51,908 nt of DNA from Candidatus Krumholzibacteriota bacterium (GTDB lineage: Bacteria; Krumholzibacteriota; Krumholzibacteriia; Krumholzibacteriales; Krumholzibacteriaceae). Location of the stretch: positions 1 to 51,908 of the forward strand of contig JAUWCL010000024.1 of NCBI GenBank assembly GCA_030609325.1, read 5' to 3'. A program made the position numbers and the translations under genes. This document shows, one piece after another, positions 6,212 through 25,522 of this stretch (positions are counted from its first letter, which is position 1; the number at the start of each line of letters is the position of its first letter). The notes beneath the pieces are model-generated. The model was not told where the DNA came from and did no database searches. It saw only the letters and a program-made list of their open reading frames with translations.

Positions 6212-8566
6212 CTATTTGCCCGCCATCCAGTCGGCGTATTCCTTGACCGCTTTCCACTGGCCCTCTCCGTGGAGCTCCGCCTCCTCGAAGACCTTGTGGG
6301 CCTGGCCGCTGCCGAGGTAGTGGCCCTTGCGGAAGGCATGGACCGTCCTGCGGCGCCCTTCCTCCGAGGTGACCCAGCGCATCATCGTCGGGAGGGTCAG
6401 CCCGGTCATCCCCATCGCCTCGAGCGCGCACTCCTCGGGGTAGATCTCGTGCTGCTGTTCGATCGGCAGCATGTCGAAGAGCTCGGCGCTGGAGACGTAG
6501 AAGATGTTCATGTTGAGGTCGGCCTCGATGATCCTCGGGAGGACCTCATCGACGAACGTGTTGGTGATGCCGCTTCCCTGCAGAACAAGTGTGCCGTGGT
6601 ACGGCTTCTTCGTTCGGTCGCCCCTGCGCATCGCGTAGATGCCCGTCACTGCTGCCGTCGCCGGCGGGAGGCCGAGGGCTGCGCGATCGAAGATCTTCTC
6701 GTTCGGACGCGTCACGAACGGAGCGATGACCGCCGGCCTCTTCTTCAGGGCCGTTATGAGCATCGGGTAGACCTCCTGCGGATCCCACGGCGTAAGCGTG
6801 ATCAGGATGCCCTGCGGGAAGTTCTCCTGCAGTAGCTGCAGCGCCTGGGGATCGGCGTGGGTCGGTCCGTCCTCGCCCGTCTTCAGTCCGGCGTGGGCGC
6901 AGACGAGCAGCCAGGGGTTGAACGGCTCGCCGTTGTACGCGTACTTCATCTGCTGGCCGATGCCGTGGAGCCTCGCCGTGATGTGCTGGAGCGCTGCGAT
7001 GAACGCGCCGTACGACGATCCGGCCCCGATGTGTGAGCCGTAGGTCGAAAGACCCGCCATGATCCCGCCTATCGCGTCTTCGCAGATCCCCCCGATCGAA
7101 AGGAGTCTCGAGCCCGGATTCGATACGGCGTTGTAGAATCCCTCGGGAAAACCGTCGCCCGCCTTGTTGATGCTCGTCGAGCCGATCAGGTCGGCAGAGG
7201 CGACTAGTATCGCGCCGTTCGTCTTTTTGTTCAGGTAGTTGAGGGCCTCGCCGAGCGCTGCGCGCAGTGTCTGCGAGCTTCCCTGCGCGTAGGTGCACTC
7301 GGCAGGGATCTCTTCGGCGGAGATGTCGCCGGCGTAGATGGCGCTGATATCGGGCGCGCCGTCGCGTTTTTTCCTCGCGACTTTTGTGAGATTCTCGTCC
7401 GCTTCCTTCAGGCGGTCGCCGAAGAAGGCGGAGATCCCGTTGTCCGCCTTGAGGATCTTCCTGATCGTAACGAGGTAGTCGAAGAAATTGCTCTCGATGC
7501 TCGTCGGAGTCTTGTCGCCGCACCAGGCGGGGAACTCGACTCCGAACCTCTTTTCGAGAGGCACGAGCGTCTTGCGGAATTCCTCGGAGCAGAAGTCGTG
7601 GCCCGCGCCGTGCGACTTCCTGCCCTCGATCCCGTACTGCCACCCCTTGATCGTGCGGTAGACGATCGCGGTCGGCTGCTCGTTCAGGTTGTCCATCGCG
7701 TACTTCTGCGCGGCGAGGACCTGGCGGATGTCCTTGCCGTCCTCGACGGCGATGACGTTCCAGTCGTGGAGGTAGCAGAACTCGGCCGGCGTCCACTGTA
7801 CATACTCGCCAGGCTCGGCGCCGTCGCGGCAGACATGGTTCGAATCGATCGACGCCTGGTTCCAGTCGATGTGCATCATGATGTTCCACATCTGCGCCGT
7901 TGCTGCCGCGGCCATCGCCTCGGCGACCCTGCCCGGCGTCATGCCGCCTTCGCCCTCGATAAGGTGGATGAACGGAGCGTCCTTGCCGAAGGTGTCCATC
8001 GCGCCGAATCCCAGGCCGAAGCTCGTCGGTACTCCTACGCCCGAGGCGCCGGTGGAGAGCTTGACGAACGGGGTAAGCGGGGTCGGGTGCCCGTCGAGGG
8101 GCTTGGCATTGTATTTTTTGAACAGGGGGGTCTCCTGCGTCGGGTTGCGGCGGAAGCCGAGAAGGTCCTCGAGCCTCAGCTGTCTCTCTGGGCCGGGGAG
8201 CATTTCGGGGTGCGAGATGTGGCAGCACTCGTTCCTCAGCGCCCACATCGCGTAGAGCCCCATTGCCTTGTGACCGGCGGCGTAAGAGATGATGTCCGCT
8301 TCCCTGCACTCGGGATCGCCCATGCGGTAGTTCATCATCGAGAACAGGACTCCCTCGACCATCCTTCCCGAGGAGATGCTGCCGCCGGGATGCCCCGACT
8401 TCGGGACGAAGTTGTAGAGGATGCCGCACAGCGTCCTGTAGATGAGGTCGTAATCGTCGAACATCTTCGCCCACTCGTCGGAAACGACGCCCTCGGCCTC
8501 CTTCGGGCCGATCTCGGCGTAGTATCCCCGCCTGGGAGCGAAGCCGAACTTTTTACTTGAAGACAA
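6212..8566 (-). CDS. Transketolase-family thiamine-diphosphate enzyme
   Basis: This thiamine-diphosphate enzyme of the transketolase superfamily probably transfers two-carbon ketol units in the pentose phosphate pathway. SGHPGGSISS near the N-terminus, HLIEGEGGMTPG (part of the cofactor site) and a C-terminal pyrimidine-binding half are visible. At about 784 aa it is longer than classical transketolases (about 660) and near phosphoketolase length. It lacks an obvious phosphoketolase signature, so the exact reaction is uncertain. The start chosen is TTG at 8566 because AGGAGG lies seven bases upstream; the frame stays open for 20 more codons upstream without a comparable site. It is monocistronic, with its own promoter and terminator. 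Confidence 0.82.
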   Translation of the reverse strand: MSSSKKFGFAPRRGYYAEIGPKEAEGVVSDEWAKMFDDYDLIYRTLCGILYNFVPKSGHPGGSISSGRMVEGVLFSMMNYRMGDPECREADIISYAAGHKAMGLYAMWALRNECCHISHPEMLPGPERQLRLEDLLGFRRNPTQETPLFKKYNAKPLDGHPTPLTPFVKLSTGASGVGVPTSFGLGFGAMDTFGKDAPFIHLIEGEGGMTPGRVAEAMAAAATAQMWNIMMHIDWNQASIDSNHVCRDGAEPGEYVQWTPAEFCYLHDWNVIAVEDGKDIRQVLAAQKYAMDNLNEQPTAIVYRTIKGWQYGIEGRKSHGAGHDFCSEEFRKTLVPLEKRFGVEFPAWCGDKTPTSIESNFFDYLVTIRKILKADNGISAFFGDRLKEADENLTKVARKKRDGAPDISAIYAGDISAEEIPAECTYAQGSSQTLRAALGEALNYLNKKTNGAILVASADLIGSTSINKAGDGFPEGFYNAVSNPGSRLLSIGGICEDAIGGIMAGLSTYGSHIGAGSSYGAFIAALQHITARLHGIGQQMKYAYNGEPFNPWLLVCAHAGLKTGEDGPTHADPQALQLLQENFPQGILITLTPWDPQEVYPMLITALKKRPAVIAPFVTRPNEKIFDRAALGLPPATAAVTGIYAMRRGDRTKKPYHGTLVLQGSGITNTFVDEVLPRIIEADLNMNIFYVSSAELFDMLPIEQQHEIYPEECALEAMGMTGLTLPTMMRWVTSEEGRRRTVHAFRKGHYLGSGQAHKVFEEAELHGEGQWKAVKEYADWMAGK

Positions 8567-8652
8567 GTCGGAGCCTCCTGTTCTGCGGTTTTCCGGCCGG
8601 CGTCCGAAAAGGCTTGCCGGCGACACAGGGATTAAAATATAAACGGGGAGTA

Positions 8653-15065: not shown

Positions 15066-15979
15066 TCAGAGGACACTCCAGGGGCCGGGAGCGTTCCAGA
15101 TACATCGGAAGGGCTGATGATCCGCAAGAACGGTTACGACGGGTCTGAGGAAGGCTTCGATGGATGCGACGGTCTCGCTGAAGATCTCGGGGGCATCATT
15201 CAGCCCGGCCTTGTTGATGTATCCCATTGAATGTTCTTGTCGCTGTCCTCCGCGAATGAAGGATCAAAGACCGTCTGGTCCGCACTGACAGACGTCTTCC
15301 GGTTCCTGAATGTTTTCTCGACTGCTTCCGCCAGTGTTTCACCCTTGAAATCGAAGGTGTTCGACAGCATCCAGATATCGTAGAAATCCTTCATGCGGCT
15401 GTTCGGAACGTCGAGCTTTACCATGGCATGGAATTTCTCAGCGATAGTGCTTTCCATTGTATAGCCCTTCAGCTTCGCCCGCGGGAAATCGAGAAGCCCG
15501 GGATATTCGATTTTGCATGGGCACGGAACGATCACATCCCCGAATCCAATATCCATCTGGATGGAAATGCATGCATTCCCCAGGTTTCCCCGGAGCCTGA
15601 CACGTACGCCTTCGTACCCGGCAGTCTCTGCGATCCTGGCTGCCGTCACCGAGTTTGCGTCGAACGACATACCGGCTGGAACGACGGGCATATTGCAGAT
15701 ATCCTTTGCGGCGGAGGCAATCGCGCCGAGGCTGTTGTCGATCATTCCGAGGCAGTCGATATCCATGGTGGGGCGTGACGCGGATCCACTCCACACCGGG
15801 AGCATCAAGGCCCCCTTTAGGATGAACCTGTTCGCATGGGGGCTTTTAGACAGTCTGTAGATAAATCTCTCTATTGCGAATTTCTGTAGGAGTTCGTTGA
15901 AAGGGCGGTATGTTTCCCTGGCCGTGTTGAGGAGGCGTTGATGCACTGATGCGGCGATGTCCCTGATTTCCCGATGCAT
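15066..15979 (-). pseudogene. AbiEii-like nucleotidyltransferase toxin gene with 3' frameshift
   Basis: The open frame (15979 to 15200, 259 aa) starts one base into the upstream antitoxin stop (TAATG). It contains the AbiEii core: KGALML, then RPTMDIDCLG with Asp73 and Asp75, and later KFHAMVKLD and SRMKDFYDIW. The frame ends early at TGA 15200. Reading -1 from the GGG at 15223-15225 restores a typical AbiEii tail of about 50 residues, with GYINKAGLNDAPEIF, then AFLRP, ending in APGPWSVL at TGA 15066. One G appears to be missing from a GGGG run. The gene is therefore either recently inactivated, read by -1 slippage, or affected by a base-call error. The catalytic core is intact. Confidence 0.75.
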
Positions 15980-16605
15980 TACAGAACTGCCTCGAGATAG
16001 GGGCGGATGATCTTCTCTACCCGGCAGATCGATGAACAGCGCATGATGTCGTTCACCCTGACGTCTCCGCGATTGCGATAAGCGCGGATTGCTTCTACTG
16101 CCGTATCGAGGCCGATCCTGTTGCGGAATTTGAAGCAGTCGGCGAGTGTCTTTTCCGGACTGTAGATACGCACGCCGACTCCGTCGAGCTCGTGAATCTC
16201 CACGCCCTCCATAAATGCTTCGCCGGAGAAACGATACGTCCGGACCGGCGGGTAATCGAGCCTTGGTTCCTCGGCGCCGCGTGGAAGTGCCACATGAACT
16301 TCGTGCGGTATCTGTGTGGTGAGCTCATGGAACGACAGCGCAGAGATGAGGCATATCACGCCAGCAGGGATCCGGATCGAGACAGTCACCAGATCGGGAT
16401 TGCCCAGCGGGCTGCTGTCGGCAAGCCGGTATACTCCGCGGCTCACCTTCACCAGGATCCCCGAGTCCCTCATGGTATAAAGGGTGTCGGGGTGGATGCC
16501 CTCGCTAAGGACCTGGCTCGTGCGGAGCATGCCGCCATGCTTTCTGAAGACGGCCTCGGCCCGGCCAAATCTGGTGCTGCCGGTATTCCTGTCTTTCATC
16601 ACCAT
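15979..16605 (-). CDS. AbiEi-family antitoxin / transcriptional repressor
   Basis: This protein of about 208 aa has an N-terminal winged helix (FRKHGGMLRTSQVL, then GIHPDTLYTMRDSGILVK and GVYRL). Its C-terminal AbiEi antitoxin domain includes ISALSFHEL, a segment typical of the family, and VRIYSPEKTLADCFKFRN. In known AbiE systems this protein both neutralises AbiEii and represses the operon by binding inverted repeats. The ATG 16605 is chosen because the longer TTG start at 16632 would lie on the operator, almost at the transcription start; AGGTG precedes the ATG by about ten bases. The stop overlaps the toxin start by one base. Confidence 0.85.
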   Translation of the reverse strand: MVMKDRNTGSTRFGRAEAVFRKHGGMLRTSQVLSEGIHPDTLYTMRDSGILVKVSRGVYRLADSSPLGNPDLVTVSIRIPAGVICLISALSFHELTTQIPHEVHVALPRGAEEPRLDYPPVRTYRFSGEAFMEGVEIHELDGVGVRIYSPEKTLADCFKFRNRIGLDTAVEAIRAYRNRGDVRVNDIMRCSSICRVEKIIRPYLEAVL

Positions 16606-16614
16606 GATAATAAC

Positions 16615-16640
16615 ACCTACACATGTATACAACTGTAGGT
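16615..16640 (-). promoter_or_regulatory. Palindromic operator of the AbiE operon
   Basis: A 26-bp dyad has outer arms ACCTACA and TGTAGGT and a core TGTATACA, with 22 of 26 positions symmetric. It lies directly after the -10 element, covering the transcription start and leader. This matches the negative autoregulation known for AbiEi proteins. Confidence 0.7.
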
Positions 16641-16907: not shown

Positions 16908-19900
16908 ATGGGAATCACTCTCGGAATAGATGTCGGAACCGTCAGCACGAAGTGCGCCCTTTTCGGGGCGGGCGAGCGGCTCAGGGAGATCGCCGCCTCG
17001 GGCGACGCCGTCAGCAGCGTCTTCGACTACGCGCCCGAGCCCGGCAAGGCCGTGGCCGTCTCCGGATATCGCCGTATCCAGGGCAGGCCGATCGACGTGG
17101 TGGTCGAGCAGGTCCGCGGCATTACCGGACTGCTAGAGCCGGGCGAGCTGAAGAGTGTGATAATCACAGGATCATCCGGCAAGCTCGTCGGCGAGCTGCT
17201 GGGCATCCCGGTCGAGAACGAGTTCAAGGCGGCAGCCACCGGCATCGGGATGATATATCCAGACGTCGAGAACATATTCGAGATGGGCGGGGAGAACTCG
17301 AAGTTCATCCGCGTCTCGTGCGAGGATGCTGTTACGGGGATCGTCGACTACGAGACGAACGGCGACTGCGCCGCCGGCACCGGGTCGTTCATGGACCAGC
17401 AGTCGAGCCGCCTGCGCTTCGGGATAGAGGAGGTCGGCGACCTCGTCCTCTCGACCGAGCGCAGCCCGAAGATCGCCGGCCGCTGCAGCGTGTTCGCCAA
17501 GTCCGACATGATCCACGCCCAGCAGAAGGGGTACAAACCCGAAGAGGTCCTCAAGGGGCTCTGCGAGGCGGTGGCGAGGAACTTCAAGAGCAATATCGTC
17601 AAGGGGAAGGATGTGAAGGGGAAAACGGCCTTCATCGGCGGCGTTGCCATGAACAAGGGCGTCGCGAGCGCGGTGCGCGAGGTCTTCGAGCTCGGCGAGG
17701 ACGACTTCTTCGTCCCCGAGGAAGGGGTCTATGCAGGAGCCATAGGCGCGGCGTTCATCGCCTCGGGAAACGGCGACGGTTTCGACGAGGAAGAGTTTCT
17801 CCGCGTTCTTGAGAGCGGCGGGAAATCGGCCGGCAGATCGTTTCCGTCGTGGAAGGCCCTCACCCGAGACAAGGTCAGCTTTCTGCGCGACCGCGTGAAG
17901 GAATACTCGTTCGAGGGCAGGACCCTGCCCATCGACGCCTACCTCGGGATAGACGTCGGCTCTGTCAGCACCAACCTTGTCCTCGTCGACGACAACGGCG
18001 ACGTGGTAAAGGAGATCTACCTGCGCACGCAGGCGCGCCCGATAGAGGTCGTCACCAACGGGCTCCACGAGATCCGCGACGATGTCGGCGACAGGGTATG
18101 CATCAGGGGCGTCGGGACGACGGGCTCGGGAAGGGAACTCATAGGCGAGCTGACAGGCGCCGACACGATAAACGACGAGATCACCGCCCACAAGACCGGT
18201 GCTACCTTCATCGGCGACAGCCTGCTCCAGAGGAAGGTCGACACGATATTCGAAATCGGCGGGCAGGATTCCAAATATATCAGGATAGACGACGGGATCG
18301 TCACCGACTTCACGATGAACGAGGCATGCGCCGCCGGCACCGGCTCGTTCCTCGAGGAGCAGGCCGAGAAGCTCGACATCAACATCATCGGCGAGTTCGC
18401 CGAAAGGGCGTTAGCCTCCGGGAAGCCCCTGCGTCTCGGCGAGAGGTGCACCGTCTACATGGAGCAGGACGTCTCGGCCTACATGAAGCGCGGGGCGGAA
18501 AAGGACGACATCATCGCCGGGCTGGCCTACTCTGTCGTGCAGAACTACCTCAACAGGGTCGTGCGCGGCCGCAGGATCGGCAACGTGATCTTCTTCCAGG
18601 GCGGCACCGCGTACAACGACGCCGTCGCCGCCGCATTCAGCGAGGTCGTCGGGCGCGAGATCATCGTACCGCCGCACAACGGCGGCATCGGCGCCGTCGG
18701 GGCCGCGCTGCTGGCTAAGGAGAAGGTCAAATCACTCGGCATCCAGACCTCGTTCCGCGGGTACGAGCTGGAAAACGTCGACTTCAGCATCCGCGAGTTC
18801 ACATGCCGCGGGTGCACGAACTACTGCGACATCCAGGAGTTCACCGTCGAGGGGGAGCGCACCTACTGGGGAGACAAGTGCAGCGACAAGTACCGCAAGC
18901 GCGCCAAGGTGCCGAAGAAACCGGTCATCACCGACCTCATGGCGATTTACGACGAGCTGCTCGAGCGCGACTACCTTCCCGAGGCCGCCGCTGCGGCGGG
19001 GCTCGATCTGCCCGCCGGGACAGGCTCGTATCGGATAGGCTTCCCCCGGGCGATGTACTTCTTCGACCGTTACCCTTTCTGGAACACATACCTGCGTGCG
19101 ATGGGGATCGAGGTCGTTACCTCAAAGGCGACGAACAAGAGGATCATTCACCAGGGGCTCGAGGCGGTCGTCGCCGAGCCGTGCTTCCCGATACAGGTGG
19201 CCCACGGCCATGTCGAGTCGCTCCTCGAGGAGGAGGGCCTCGACAGCATCCTCATACCGAACGTGATCGACGCGGAGACCGACATCCCCGAGGTCAACTC
19301 GTACGTCTGTCCGTGGGGACAGACACTGCCCTTCGTCGTAAGGAGCATGCCCTCGCTCCGCGGCCGCGAGGAGTTCATCTCGGCGCCGCTCGTCCACTTC
19401 CGCGAGGGCGAGAAGTACGTAGAGAAGGAGCTGCGCGGGTTCGCCGCGAAGTTCGGGATCGGCACGCGCCATCATAAAAAGGCAGTGAAGGCGGCTTACG
19501 GGGCGCAGAGGATGTTCCGCGAGGCGGTGCGCGAGAATGGGGCAAAGGCTCTCAAGACCCTCGACGAGACTGGCGAGCAGGGGATCATCATCGTAGGGCG
19601 CCCGTACAACATCGTAGACCGCGAGGTCAATCTCAACGTTCCCGGCAAGCTGAGGGACTACTACGGCGCAAACGTCATTCCGATCTTCTTCGTCGACATC
19701 GACGGGATCGGGATACGCGACCTCGGCCAGAACATGTTCTGGAACTACGGCAGGAAGATCCTCCAGGCCTCGCGATACGCGGCCCAGAGGGAGAACCTGC
19801 ACATGATATACATTACGAACTTCAAGTGCGGCCCCGACTCGTACGTGAAGCACTTCACGGGCAGTGCGGCGGTCCGCCCCTATCTCACGCTTCAGTTTGA

Positions 19901-20078
19901 CGCGCACGGCAACGACGCCGGCATAATGACGCGCTGCGAGGCATACCTCGACAGCAAAGGAGTCCTCAGATGGTGGAAAGCAAAGGAAACCCCCTCGCGG
20001 GAAGGACCCTCTACGTCCCGAGAATGTCTTCCGGAGGAGCAGAGGCCTTCTCTGCAGCCTTCAGGTACCTCGGGATAG
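16908..20078 (+). CDS. Fused double 2-hydroxyacyl-CoA dehydratase activase (BcrA/BadF-type) with DUF2229 region
   Basis: This 1056-aa protein belongs to the acyl-CoA dehydratase activase-related family. Two ASKHA ATPase modules lie in tandem: residues 1-310 open with GITLGIDVGTVST, and about 345-640 with YLGIDVGSVST. Each carries the iron-sulfur motif CAAGTGSF plus a second cysteine (GRCSVF and GERCTVY). In known activases two subunits share one [4Fe-4S] cluster, so this chain could build that site by itself. A cysteine-rich linker (CRGCTNYC, later DKC) precedes a DUF2229-type region with a further conserved part (about 700-1000). ATG 16908 is preceded by GGAAGGAA; upstream codons lack family similarity. 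It overlaps the 425-aa partner by 109 bases. Confidence 0.88.
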   Translation: MGITLGIDVGTVSTKCALFGAGERLREIAASGDAVSSVFDYAPEPGKAVAVSGYRRIQGRPIDVVVEQVRGITGLLEPGELKSVIITGSSGKLVGELLGIPVENEFKAAATGIGMIYPDVENIFEMGGENSKFIRVSCEDAVTGIVDYETNGDCAAGTGSFMDQQSSRLRFGIEEVGDLVLSTERSPKIAGRCSVFAKSDMIHAQQKGYKPEEVLKGLCEAVARNFKSNIVKGKDVKGKTAFIGGVAMNKGVASAVREVFELGEDDFFVPEEGVYAGAIGAAFIASGNGDGFDEEEFLRVLESGGKSAGRSFPSWKALTRDKVSFLRDRVKEYSFEGRTLPIDAYLGIDVGSVSTNLVLVDDNGDVVKEIYLRTQARPIEVVTNGLHEIRDDVGDRVCIRGVGTTGSGRELIGELTGADTINDEITAHKTGATFIGDSLLQRKVDTIFEIGGQDSKYIRIDDGIVTDFTMNEACAAGTGSFLEEQAEKLDINIIGEFAERALASGKPLRLGERCTVYMEQDVSAYMKRGAEKDDIIAGLAYSVVQNYLNRVVRGRRIGNVIFFQGGTAYNDAVAAAFSEVVGREIIVPPHNGGIGAVGAALLAKEKVKSLGIQTSFRGYELENVDFSIREFTCRGCTNYCDIQEFTVEGERTYWGDKCSDKYRKRAKVPKKPVITDLMAIYDELLERDYLPEAAAAAGLDLPAGTGSYRIGFPRAMYFFDRYPFWNTYLRAMGIEVVTSKATNKRIIHQGLEAVVAEPCFPIQVAHGHVESLLEEEGLDSILIPNVIDAETDIPEVNSYVCPWGQTLPFVVRSMPSLRGREEFISAPLVHFREGEKYVEKELRGFAAKFGIGTRHHKKAVKAAYGAQRMFREAVRENGAKALKTLDETGEQGIIIVGRPYNIVDREVNLNVPGKLRDYYGANVIPIFFVDIDGIGIRDLGQNMFWNYGRKILQASRYAAQRENLHMIYITNFKCGPDSYVKHFTGSAAVRPYLTLQFDAHGNDAGIMTRCEAYLDSKGVLRWWKAKETPSREGPSTSRECLPEEQRPSLQPSGTSG

Positions 20079-21247
20079 AGACCCGGCCCACGCCGGAGGG
20101 TAACGAGAGGACATATGAGTTGGCCGGAAAGTGCACATCGGGCGACGAGTGCCTCCCCGCGCGCGTCACGATCGGCAATTTCCTCCGTGTGATCGAGCAG
20201 CCCGGGTTCGACCCGTCGAAGACGGCGTTCTTCCTGCCTACGGCCGGCGGCCCGTGCCGGTTCGGGCAGTACGCGCCGTTTGCGCGGCAGGTCATGGACG
20301 AGATGGGCCACGGAGAGGTCCTGATCGTCTCGCCGACCAGCGCCGACGGATACGCGAGCCTCGGCGAGAGCGCCGGCGATCTCCTCAAGCTCGGCTGGTG
20401 GGGGCTCGTGGCGAGCGACGCCTTCCGCAAGATACTCCACATCTACAGGCCGTACGAGACAGAGCCGGGCACCGCAGACAAGGCGCACGCGAAATCCCTG
20501 AAACTGTTCTGCGACGCCCTGGCCGACCGGTCCGAGTCCCTCGACAGGAAGCTTGATTCGCTCGTCGGCGTGATGGAGGAGGCGAGAGATATCTTCCGCG
20601 CCGTACCGGCCGATTTCGGGAAGGATGTGATGCTCGTCGGAGTGGTCGGCGAGATCTTCTGTCGTCTCAGCACCTTCAGCAACGAGGACCTGATCAGGCG
20701 CCTCGAGCCGTTCGGGGCCCAGGCGTGGCTCTCGGACATCACCGAGTGGGTCCACTACACCGACAGCGACAACATCAGGAACCTCAAGAGGCTGGGTAAG
20801 GTCTTCACGACCGGAATGCTCGGCGCGCTGATCAAGCGGCGCGTCCAGCACGGATACGAGAAGAAGCTGCTCGCCCCGCTGCAGGGCGAGTTCGTCGGCG
20901 TCGAGGAGCCCCGCAGCGTGGGCGAGGTCCTCGACCTTGCCGCGCCTTACCTCCCCGTGGCGGGCTCGCTCGGCGAGATGGTCCTGAGCGTCGGCAAATC
21001 GATATACATGTACGGGAAGGGCGCGGACGGCATCATCGACATCAGCCCGTTCACCTGCATGAACGGGATCATCTCCGAGTCGATCTACCCGAGGTTAAGC
21101 GCCGACCACGATAACATCCCCATCAGGAACTTCTACTTCGACGGGACGCAGACCGACCTCGAGAACGATCTCGGGATTTTCATGGAACTCGTCCGCAATT
21201 ACCACCGTAAGAAAACAAGGAAGCGGATCAGGCGAAAGGTGGCCTGA
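19970..21247 (+). CDS. 2-hydroxyacyl-CoA dehydratase-like partner of the double activase
   Basis: This 425-aa protein is related to the region found C-terminally in single-chain activase/dehydratase proteins. Conserved cysteines occur in GKCTSGDECLPARV, GGPCRFGQY and FTCMNGI, suggesting iron-sulfur binding. It starts at ATG 19970, preceded by AAAGGAG, inside the end of the activase gene (109-base overlap in another frame), so the two are certainly co-expressed. Close relatives accompany or are fused to double activases in anaerobes. The substrate is unknown: no classical HgdA/HgdB-type subunits or CoA transferase lie nearby. A double-cubane-like reductase is one alternative. Confidence 0.78.
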   Translation: MVESKGNPLAGRTLYVPRMSSGGAEAFSAAFRYLGIETRPTPEGNERTYELAGKCTSGDECLPARVTIGNFLRVIEQPGFDPSKTAFFLPTAGGPCRFGQYAPFARQVMDEMGHGEVLIVSPTSADGYASLGESAGDLLKLGWWGLVASDAFRKILHIYRPYETEPGTADKAHAKSLKLFCDALADRSESLDRKLDSLVGVMEEARDIFRAVPADFGKDVMLVGVVGEIFCRLSTFSNEDLIRRLEPFGAQAWLSDITEWVHYTDSDNIRNLKRLGKVFTTGMLGALIKRRVQHGYEKKLLAPLQGEFVGVEEPRSVGEVLDLAAPYLPVAGSLGEMVLSVGKSIYMYGKGADGIIDISPFTCMNGIISESIYPRLSADHDNIPIRNFYFDGTQTDLENDLGIFMELVRNYHRKKTRKRIRRKVA

Positions 21248-21330: not shown

Positions 21331-22674
21331 ATGAGGAGAATCATTCCGGCGGCTGCCGTAGCGGCTGCCGTCCTGCTCGTCCTTTCCGCCGGGGCGGCCC
21401 CCGCGGCCGCCGGCGAAAAGATCGAGGTGGCGATCGACGCCACCGTGGAGACCCTCGACAACGGCCTCAAGGTGATCCTCGTCGAGGACCACTCCGTTCC
21501 GGTCATCAGCTACCAGACATTCTTCCGCGTGGGGGCGCGCAACGAACGCGCAGGCATCACGGGGATCTCGCATTTCATGGAACACATGATGTTCAACGGC
21601 GCCGACAAGTACGGCCCGAAGGAGTTCGACGCCGTCCTCGAGGCGAACGGCGGCTATTCCAACGCTTTTACCTCGGCCGATATGACAGCATACTATGAGG
21701 ACATCTCGAGCGACGGTCTCGAGCTCTGCATCGACCTCGACTCGGACAGGATGAAGTCGCTCAAGCTCGATCCGAAGTTCATCGTCAGCGAGATGGACGT
21801 CGTCAAGGAGGAGCGCCGCCTGAGGATCGACAACTCGGTTCAGGGGCAGATGCGGGAGGACCTCGACGCCCTCGCGTTCAAGGCCCATTCGTACAAATGG
21901 CCCGTCATCGGCTGGATGTCCGATCTCGAGGCGATCGACCGCGATGACTGCGTCGAGTACTTCAGGACGTTCTACGCCCCCAACAACGCGATCCTCATAG
22001 TCGCCGGCGACTTCGACACGAAGAAGGCGATGAAGCTGATACACGAATACTACGACGACATACCGGCCCGGGAGCCGTCGCAGGCTGTCCGTACGGTCGA
22101 GCCGGAGCAGATGGGCGAGCGCCGTGGAGAGGTTCACAGGAAGGCGGAGCTGCCCGCCGTGATGATCTCCTATCATACCCCCGACATCGCGAGCGGCGAT
22201 ATCTACGCGCTCGACGTCCTCCAGAAGATCCTCACCGGCGGCCGCAGCTCCAGGCTCTACCGCAAGCTCGTCCGCGAGACCGGGGCCGCGATGTCGGTGC
22301 GTGCCTCCTTCCCGTGGAGGATCGATCCGTACCTCTTCTCGTTCAACATCAAGATGAAGCCGGGTCGCGAGACGGCGGAGGCCGAGGAGGCCGTCTACGC
22401 CGCGCTGATCGACATCGCGGAGAACGGCGTCCTCGATGAGGAGCTCTCGCGGGCGAAGAATGTTCTCGAGGCCGATTTCGTGAGGAGCATGCAGAAGGTC
22501 AACGGCAGGGCGAGCAAGATCGGCAGGTACGAGATCCTCTTCGGCGACTACCGCGAGATCATGAATGTGCCGGGCCGCTACAGGGCCGTGACGAACGACG
22601 AAGTGCGCGGGGCGGCGAAGAAATATTTCTCGAGCAGGAACAGGACCGTGGTGACACTGGTGCCCGAGGCATAG
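21331..22674 (+). CDS. M16 family zinc peptidase (active subunit)
   Basis: This 447-aa exported protein has a signal peptide ending near APAAA. The inverzincin zinc motif HxxEH is HFMEH at 81-85, with the distal glutamate region after ELCIDLDSDRM. Two M16 halves (PF00675 and PF05193) are present. ATG 21331 follows GGAGGAG. The gene directly precedes a second M16 gene whose ribosome-binding site overlaps this stop. Together they match bacterial M16B heterodimers with one catalytic subunit, probably a periplasmic processing peptidase degrading short peptides. Confidence 0.92.
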   Translation: MRRIIPAAAVAAAVLLVLSAGAAPAAAGEKIEVAIDATVETLDNGLKVILVEDHSVPVISYQTFFRVGARNERAGITGISHFMEHMMFNGADKYGPKEFDAVLEANGGYSNAFTSADMTAYYEDISSDGLELCIDLDSDRMKSLKLDPKFIVSEMDVVKEERRLRIDNSVQGQMREDLDALAFKAHSYKWPVIGWMSDLEAIDRDDCVEYFRTFYAPNNAILIVAGDFDTKKAMKLIHEYYDDIPAREPSQAVRTVEPEQMGERRGEVHRKAELPAVMISYHTPDIASGDIYALDVLQKILTGGRSSRLYRKLVRETGAAMSVRASFPWRIDPYLFSFNIKMKPGRETAEAEEAVYAALIDIAENGVLDEELSRAKNVLEADFVRSMQKVNGRASKIGRYEILFGDYREIMNVPGRYRAVTNDEVRGAAKKYFSSRNRTVVTLVPEA

Positions 22675-22686
22675 GAGGATCATGCT

Positions 22687-24081
22687 ATGAGACGGATATT
22701 ATCAGTGCTGATCGCGGCGGCCGTGATCGCCGCCTCCGTGCCCGCTGTGTCGGGCACCAGGGACGTCAAGCTCCCCGACTACGAGGAGCACGTCATGAAA
22801 AACGGCCTGAAGGTCTTCGTCGTCGAGACGAGCGAGGTCCCGCTCGTGACGATGAGGCTCCTCATCCCCGCCGGCTCGTGCAGCGACGGGCCGGGCAGCG
22901 AGGGTCTGGCCGGCATGACCGCCAGGCTCCTGCTCAAGGGCGCCGGCGGCAAGGGCGCCGACGAGATCTCCTCGTCGGTCGAGGGAGTCGGCGGCAGGCT
23001 CGACGCCTGGGCCGGACGTGACTACGCCGTTATTACGGGCGATTTTCTCTCCCGCGACGTCGAGCTCGGTCTCGATCATCTCGCCCGCGTCGTGACAAAG
23101 CCTGATTTCCTCGCCGAAGAGTTCGAGCGCGAGAAGTCGATCGTCCTTGCAGAGGCGATGAGTGTGAAGGAGAACCCCTGCTCGCTCGCGAACAGGGAGT
23201 TCCTCAGGCTCCTTCTCGCCCCGCATCCGTACGGCAACCCGGTCGACGGCTACCCGTCGAGCGTAAGGGAGATGACGCGCGATGACGTCGTCGGTTTCCA
23301 CAGAAGCCGCTATGTGCCCGGGGGTGCCGTGCTCGCCGTCGTCGGCGACGTCGACGCCGGAAAGGCCAGGAAGCTCATAGAGGAGAAATTCGGCGGATGG
23401 AAGGGCTCACCTCCCGCGGACAGCCGTGTCGCCGCCCTCGAGAAGCGGCCGGCGAAGACCCGCAGGGTGATCGTCATCGACAAGCCCGACCTCACGCAGA
23501 GCCAGATCAGGATCGGGAATATCGCCGTCGGCAGGGACACGCCCGACCATTTCGAACTGACAGTCGCGAACAGCGTGCTCGGCGGAGGATTCACCTCGAG
23601 ATTGATGGACGAGATCAGGGTCAACAGGGGCCTTTCGTACGGCGCGAGTAGCGGGCTCGGTCAGTATCGCTACGGCGGCTTCTTCGGCGTCTACACCTAT
23701 ACGAAGAACGCCACCCTGCGAGAGACGATCGACGTCGCCCTCGAGCAGATCATGCTGATCCGCGACGAGAAGGTGGGCGAGGAGGAGCTCGCAGGGTGCA
23801 GGCGCTACATATCGGGTCTCTTCCCTTTCGACATAGAGACGAACTCCGACATCGCACAGTGGATGACCGACCTCGAGTTCTATAGTCTCGGCGGTGATTT
23901 CATCGAGAAGTACCGCAGCAGGATAGGGGCCGTCTCATCAGACGGCGTCATGCGCGTAGCGAGGGAGCATTTCGGCTGCGACGGGAACCTCATCGTCGTG
24001 ATAACGAACTACGAGGAGACGAAGGACCAACTCGAGGGCCTCGGCGAGACAGAGGTCATATCGATAAAGGAGATAGAGTAA
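22687..24081 (+). CDS. M16 family peptidase-like protein (non-catalytic subunit)
   Basis: This 464-aa protein has a signal peptide and the M16 fold, but at the zinc-motif position it reads EGLAGMTARLLLKGAG, so HxxEH is absent. The C-terminal half keeps the arginine-tyrosine pair region seen in non-catalytic partners (LMDEIRVNRGLSYGASSG). The gene starts 12 bases after the catalytic subunit, with AGGAGG spanning the previous stop. A role as the substrate-binding partner of the preceding enzyme is expected from characterised M16B pairs. Confidence 0.9.
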   Translation: MRRILSVLIAAAVIAASVPAVSGTRDVKLPDYEEHVMKNGLKVFVVETSEVPLVTMRLLIPAGSCSDGPGSEGLAGMTARLLLKGAGGKGADEISSSVEGVGGRLDAWAGRDYAVITGDFLSRDVELGLDHLARVVTKPDFLAEEFEREKSIVLAEAMSVKENPCSLANREFLRLLLAPHPYGNPVDGYPSSVREMTRDDVVGFHRSRYVPGGAVLAVVGDVDAGKARKLIEEKFGGWKGSPPADSRVAALEKRPAKTRRVIVIDKPDLTQSQIRIGNIAVGRDTPDHFELTVANSVLGGGFTSRLMDEIRVNRGLSYGASSGLGQYRYGGFFGVYTYTKNATLRETIDVALEQIMLIRDEKVGEEELAGCRRYISGLFPFDIETNSDIAQWMTDLEFYSLGGDFIEKYRSRIGAVSSDGVMRVAREHFGCDGNLIVVITNYEETKDQLEGLGETEVISIKEIE

Positions 24082-25392: not shown

Positions 25393-25420
25393 CTTCGTCT
25401 CCTTGATAGAAAAGAAAAAT

Positions 25421-25503
25421 GCCTGAGGGGGGAGTCGAACCCCCACGAGGTTACCCTCACTGCGCCCTGAACGCAGCGCGTCTACCAGTTCCACCACTCA
25501 GGC
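25421..25503 (-). tRNA. tRNA-Leu (anticodon CAG)
   Basis: The 83-base gene pairs GCCTGAG with CTCAGGC in the acceptor stem. It has the class II long variable arm, a T arm with GGTTCGA, and an anticodon loop TTCAGGG giving CAG. The CCA end is not encoded. It lies 28 bases before the osmC-like start and uses the promoter at 25523-25551. Confidence 0.95.
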
Positions 25504-25522
25504 ATCTTCTTTGCAGGTAAGT

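Follow-up and report, generated by a model that had tools for sequence, protein, structure and literature searches.

The window analysed here, a stretch of 51,908 nucleotides, is contig 16 of a 95%-complete Candidatus Krumholzibacteriota genome of 2.63 Mb. At positions 16908-21247, coordinates that the original prediction had placed correctly, it carries two overlapping genes, ORF1 and ORF2 (Table 1). ORF1 matched PF01869 twice and PF09989 (DUF2229) once, while no Pfam or NCBIfam family reached its cut-off in ORF2. A Shine-Dalgarno-like GGAAGGA precedes the ATG of ORF1 at 16908, and homology starts there; a longer mechanical reading frame from 16734 was unsupported, as homologues start only at its residue 59.

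Table 1. Coordinates of the ORF1/ORF2 pair and its modules within the window
Feature	Position	Strand	Basis
ORF1, 1056 aa: double activase, four-cysteine linker and DUF2229	16908..20078	+	Pfam/NCBIfam; start from 80 homologues and GGAAGGA
Activase module D1, residues 1-295; cysteine codons C154 (17367), C193 (17484)	16908..17792	+	PF01869; conservation; DCCP-R fold, Z 22.5
Activase module D2, residues 343-612; cysteine codons C474 (18327), C514 (18447)	17934..18743	+	PF01869; MbdQ, Z 29.2
Linker, invariant CxxCxxxC-X17-C (C633, C636, C640, C658)	18744..18932	+	Conservation; Monoglobus activase tail
DUF2229 module, residues 700-1020, predicted first catalytic subunit; C759, C801, C974	19005..19967	+	PF09989; paralogy with ORF2
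Gene overlap, 109 nt, out of frame	19970..20078	+	Retained in same-genus genomes
ORF2, 425 aa, predicted second catalytic subunit; C61, C96, C363	19970..21247	+	AlphaFold2, Foldseek, VIA

The HgdC-type activase models (PF01869/TIGR00241) scored 236.9 against 31.5 bits and 266.2 against 125.4 bits, above the curated cut-off, and the sequence and fold matches of D1 and D2 were HgdC, HadI, MbdQ/P and DCCP-R. In the predicted model of ORF1 (pLDDT 84.8), D2 superposed on MbdQ over 259 residues with an rmsd of 1.9 and D1 superposed on DCCP-R (7yyl_E) over 242 residues, with the Z scores given in Table 1. Each module carries the two ligand cysteines of HgdC-type activases, and all four are 100% conserved among 81 aligned homologues of ORF1 (80 or 81 of them with a residue at each position), in agreement with the original prediction of two activase modules, both cysteines in each, within one chain; C474 of D2 was aligned to C127 of 1hux. 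A shared [4Fe-4S] cluster is the natural reading, as both cysteine pairs line up with the residues that ligate the cluster in HgdC-type activases and D2 matches MbdQ in fold. Because all four activase cysteines are invariant, a single cluster bridging D1 and D2 within one chain is plausible. The four cysteines of the linker are likewise 100% conserved (80-81 homologues), which bears out the earlier description of a cysteine-rich linker followed by an overlapping partner.

The two activase modules differ in a conserved manner, with a GGENSK-like motif in D1 versus GGQDSK in D2, and in a tree they formed separate clades of 21 sequences each. Given this GGENSK instead of GGQDSK, D1 could be non-hydrolysing, and the asymmetry recalls the unlike-subunit activases of benzoyl-CoA reductases (BCR). 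It had been stated that known activases are homodimers; this does not hold for the class I benzoyl-CoA reductases, where two unlike subunits (BzdPQ, MbdPQ) pair to form the activase and share a bridging cluster (PMC11971306). We also considered D1 as an orthologue of the delta subunit MbdP, but D1 matches HadI and MbdQ better. The likeness to the BCR activases would accordingly lie in the arrangement, direct descent not being supported by the D1 matches.

The AlphaFold2 model of ORF2 (pLDDT 89.9) folds like the 2-hydroxyacyl-CoA dehydratases, benzoyl-CoA reductases and double-cubane proteins. Foldseek returned nine matches at E < 1e-3, every one a chain of DCCP, HadBC or MbdON, with the DCCP chains 7yyl/6eno as the best (TM ~0.44); the match that followed had an E-value of only 0.06. 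In VIA, HadBC, BzdNO, MbdON and DCCP filled ranks 1-9 (Z 9.2-13.5), the HAD chain 3o3n_B being the top match, and the comparison with the BCR-I/HAD/DCCP superfamily gave Z scores of 8.7-13.5 over 269-292 residues. The modest TM score makes the kinship of ORF2 to this superfamily a distant one, and no relative was found when ORF2 was searched against PDB chains as a single sequence or as a profile. With the whole of ORF1, the Foldseek and VIA matches were filled by the ATPase folds of the activase part; DUF2229 would share the catalytic-subunit fold by way of its paralogy with ORF2. PF09989 was weakly matched by 33 of 48 ORF2 relatives (best E 1.2e-6), and the ORF2 and DUF2229 profiles matched at 86%, their first two cysteines falling into register; the two are paralogues with matching cysteine triads.

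Both triads are 100% conserved, that of DUF2229 in 81 aligned homologues and that of ORF2 in 64 ORF2 sequences, and they resemble the triad 95/128/380 of BzdO (PMC11971306); by their number and spacing, the invariant cysteines would supply three ligands per catalytic [4Fe-4S] subunit. ORF2 C231 and ORF1 C1010 are conserved at 97%, and the conserved cysteines number at most four in DUF2229 and at most four in ORF2, against six per subunit for the double cubane [8Fe-9S] of DCCP. In hhalign comparisons with classical subunits from relatives, ORF2 scored 30.4 (shuffled maximum 25.2) and DUF2229 21.7 (shuffled 21.4); as these values are barely above the shuffled controls, our argument is built on fold and paralogy. 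PF06050 (HGD-D) gave no match in ORF1 or ORF2, and the curated BCR subunit models TIGR02259, TIGR03192 and TIGR02261 scored far under their cut-offs. Taken as a whole, DUF2229 and ORF2 are very probably the catalytic pair.

Relatives present the same modules in several layouts. In two genomes from the same class, D1, D2, the linker, DUF2229 and ORF2 form a single chain, of 1460 and 1471 aa. With modules assigned by profile, single fused five-module chains were found in Collinsella (1479 aa) and Listeria (1475 aa), the two-gene layout of the window in Fusobacterium, and three genes in Monoglobus (L152:4010-7227), which encode a one-module activase with the four-cysteine linker as its C-terminal tail, a DUF2229 protein and an ORF2-like protein. 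On the strength of the Monoglobus layout, which is possibly the form before fusion, the linker is best read as belonging to the activase, and the window version as a three-part enzyme that was duplicated and fused. A pattern scan retrieved 297 relatives across many phyla, and RefSeq names relatives of the pair 'acyl-CoA dehydratase activase', 'activase-related protein' or '2-hydroxyacyl-CoA dehydratase'. Of 58 genomes searched for PF09989, 31 have it, among them 21 of the 25 belonging to the same family or order; PF06050 occurs in one of these 25. PF09989 was also matched in a Lactococcus lactis control genome.

The locus is thus not a lone activase; it is a well-conserved system of a kind already named in RefSeq. 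The suggestion that the catalytic subunits are missing is not supported, given the predicted dehydratase/BCR/DCCP fold of ORF2, the paralogy of DUF2229 and the relatives that fuse everything in one chain. The statement that no classical dehydratase subunits lie nearby holds in the literal sense, the 95%-complete genome having yielded no PF06050 match, but it misleads, since divergent subunits, which DUF2229 and ORF2 very probably are, belong to the locus itself. We consider it probable that ORF1 and ORF2 together make up a single ATP-driven reductase belonging to the BCR-I/HAD/DCCP superfamily, in which activase and catalytic half are built together. The superfamily carries out some of biology's hardest reductions and this branch of it is common in bacteria; with DUF2229 and ORF2 as the catalytic pair, a partnerless activase would become a complete enzyme made from one to three genes.

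For the mechanism we used HAD, BCR-I and DCCP as models (PMC11574389, PMC11971306), and every step past the sequence anatomy is one that we infer. Reduced ferredoxin would be the likely electron source, reducing the D1-D2 cluster. D1 and D2 would pair within the chain as a pseudo-dimer, with one [4Fe-4S] cluster bound by their four cysteines, and ATP binding and hydrolysis, as in HgdC, BCR and DCCP-R, would move this cluster and bring single electrons to very low potential. The electron, perhaps passing a second cluster on the linker, would reach two clusters with three cysteines each, that of DUF2229 and that of ORF2, and the substrate would be reduced radically at one of them. The genome contains four ferredoxin-oxidoreductase (POR) gamma genes and gave no match to heme-copper oxidase (COX1), a gene content in keeping with an anaerobic host that has reduced ferredoxin. 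The system is single-copy, no further PF01869 gene being found in the 95%-complete genome.

Among the scanned neighbours there was no CoA transferase, 2-hydroxyacid dehydrogenase or acyl-CoA gene and no benzoate genes were seen, nor is a fermentation-type gene conserved beside the pair in 80 relatives. The gene-neighbourhood check named in the original prediction revealed no pathway: conservation of neighbouring genes is confined to close relatives, and PF06050 is not found elsewhere in the genome. The commonest neighbour family is that of the M16 peptidases (9 of 81 loci, each from a close relative); two such genes lie directly 3' of the pair at 21331-24081 (+), and M16 genes lie downstream in eight related loci. 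Directly upstream, and divergent to ORF1, is an AbiEi/AbiEii type IV toxin-antitoxin-like pair (PF08843, PF13338) at 15200-16632 (-). A divergent transketolase-like protein, far under the curated cut-offs, is encoded at 6212-8626 (-), and five related loci have transketolase-like genes upstream of the pair. A tRNA-Leu (CAG) at 25419-25504 (-) lies inside the GTG-extended reading frame of an OsmC-like gene, so that the N-terminus of this frame is translated tRNA; a similar layout occurs in another genome (L042).

Literature searches returned almost nothing on DUF2229/COG3580/COG3581 and no described reaction for this branch, in agreement with the original prediction, which named no substrate. 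If ORF1 and ORF2 are one reductase, there is roughly an even chance of a DCCP-like or general reductase whose target is a small molecule, a metabolite or another metalloprotein, in a stand-alone housekeeping or repair role. The single copy, the spread over many phyla, the lack of conserved pathway neighbours and the DCCP chains at the head of the Foldseek matches all point this way, although each catalytic module has too few conserved cysteines for the double cubane of DCCP/BzdN (six), unless the linker cysteines contribute. Somewhat tentatively, the pair might represent a widespread branch of ATP-driven reductases in which activase, four-cysteine cluster module and catalytic subunit are covalently joined, so that the electrons would follow a single polypeptide to a non-catabolic substrate. 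A true 2-hydroxyacyl-CoA dehydratase, in which a single injected electron would be recycled as a CoA thioester loses water, is suggested by the RefSeq name '2-hydroxyacyl-CoA dehydratase' on ORF2 relatives, by the three invariant cysteines per catalytic subunit, as in HAD, and by the top VIA match of ORF2; we regard it as unlikely, given the weak sequence link to the classical subunits and the absence of the CoA and 2-hydroxyacid genes listed above among the scanned neighbours and of a conserved fermentation-type gene beside the pair in 80 relatives.

Two further readings concern how the chains are put together. Two ORF1 chains could dimerise, D1 with D1' and D2 with D2', so that there would be two bridging clusters and no in-chain pairing, much as the one-module activase of Monoglobus would need to dimerise; we find this improbable, as the split of D1 and D2 into separate clades predates the spread of the family, which is expected of unlike partners such as BzdPQ and MbdPQ. 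That ORF1 and ORF2 are a single fused gene split by a sequencing frameshift is hardly credible and was rejected: five-module fusions do exist in relatives, but the same overlap in two same-genus genomes (L033 and L051) means that it is real and no assembly frameshift, overlaps of varied length occur in other relatives of the pair, and ORF2 has its own start, ATG 19970, with an AAAGGAG site upstream.

The preferred reading, one reductase with activase and catalytic half built together, can be set beside three known systems. With the 2-hydroxyacyl-CoA dehydratases and HgdC/HadI, the pair shares the activase motifs, the cysteine pairs, the predicted catalytic fold and three cysteines per catalytic subunit; it differs in that their activase is homodimeric and separable, and in having neither a PF06050 match nor pathway genes. 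DCCP and DCCP-R resemble it in the predicted folds of ORF2 (7yyl/6eno) and D1 (7yyl_E), and the physiological role of DCCP is not established, as for ORF1/ORF2; DCCP is, however, a homodimer with double-cubane clusters, whereas ORF1 and ORF2 provide two unlike catalytic modules with three or four conserved cysteines each. BzdNOPQ/MbdONPQ combine an activase dimer of unlike partners and a bridging [4Fe-4S] cluster with two homologous catalytic subunits; MbdQ has the closest fold to D2, and BzdO uses three cysteines, as ORF2 appears to do. These systems are encoded by separate genes, whereas ORF1 joins the activase modules and the predicted first catalytic subunit in one chain, with an extra four-cysteine linker and without the double-cubane cysteine set.
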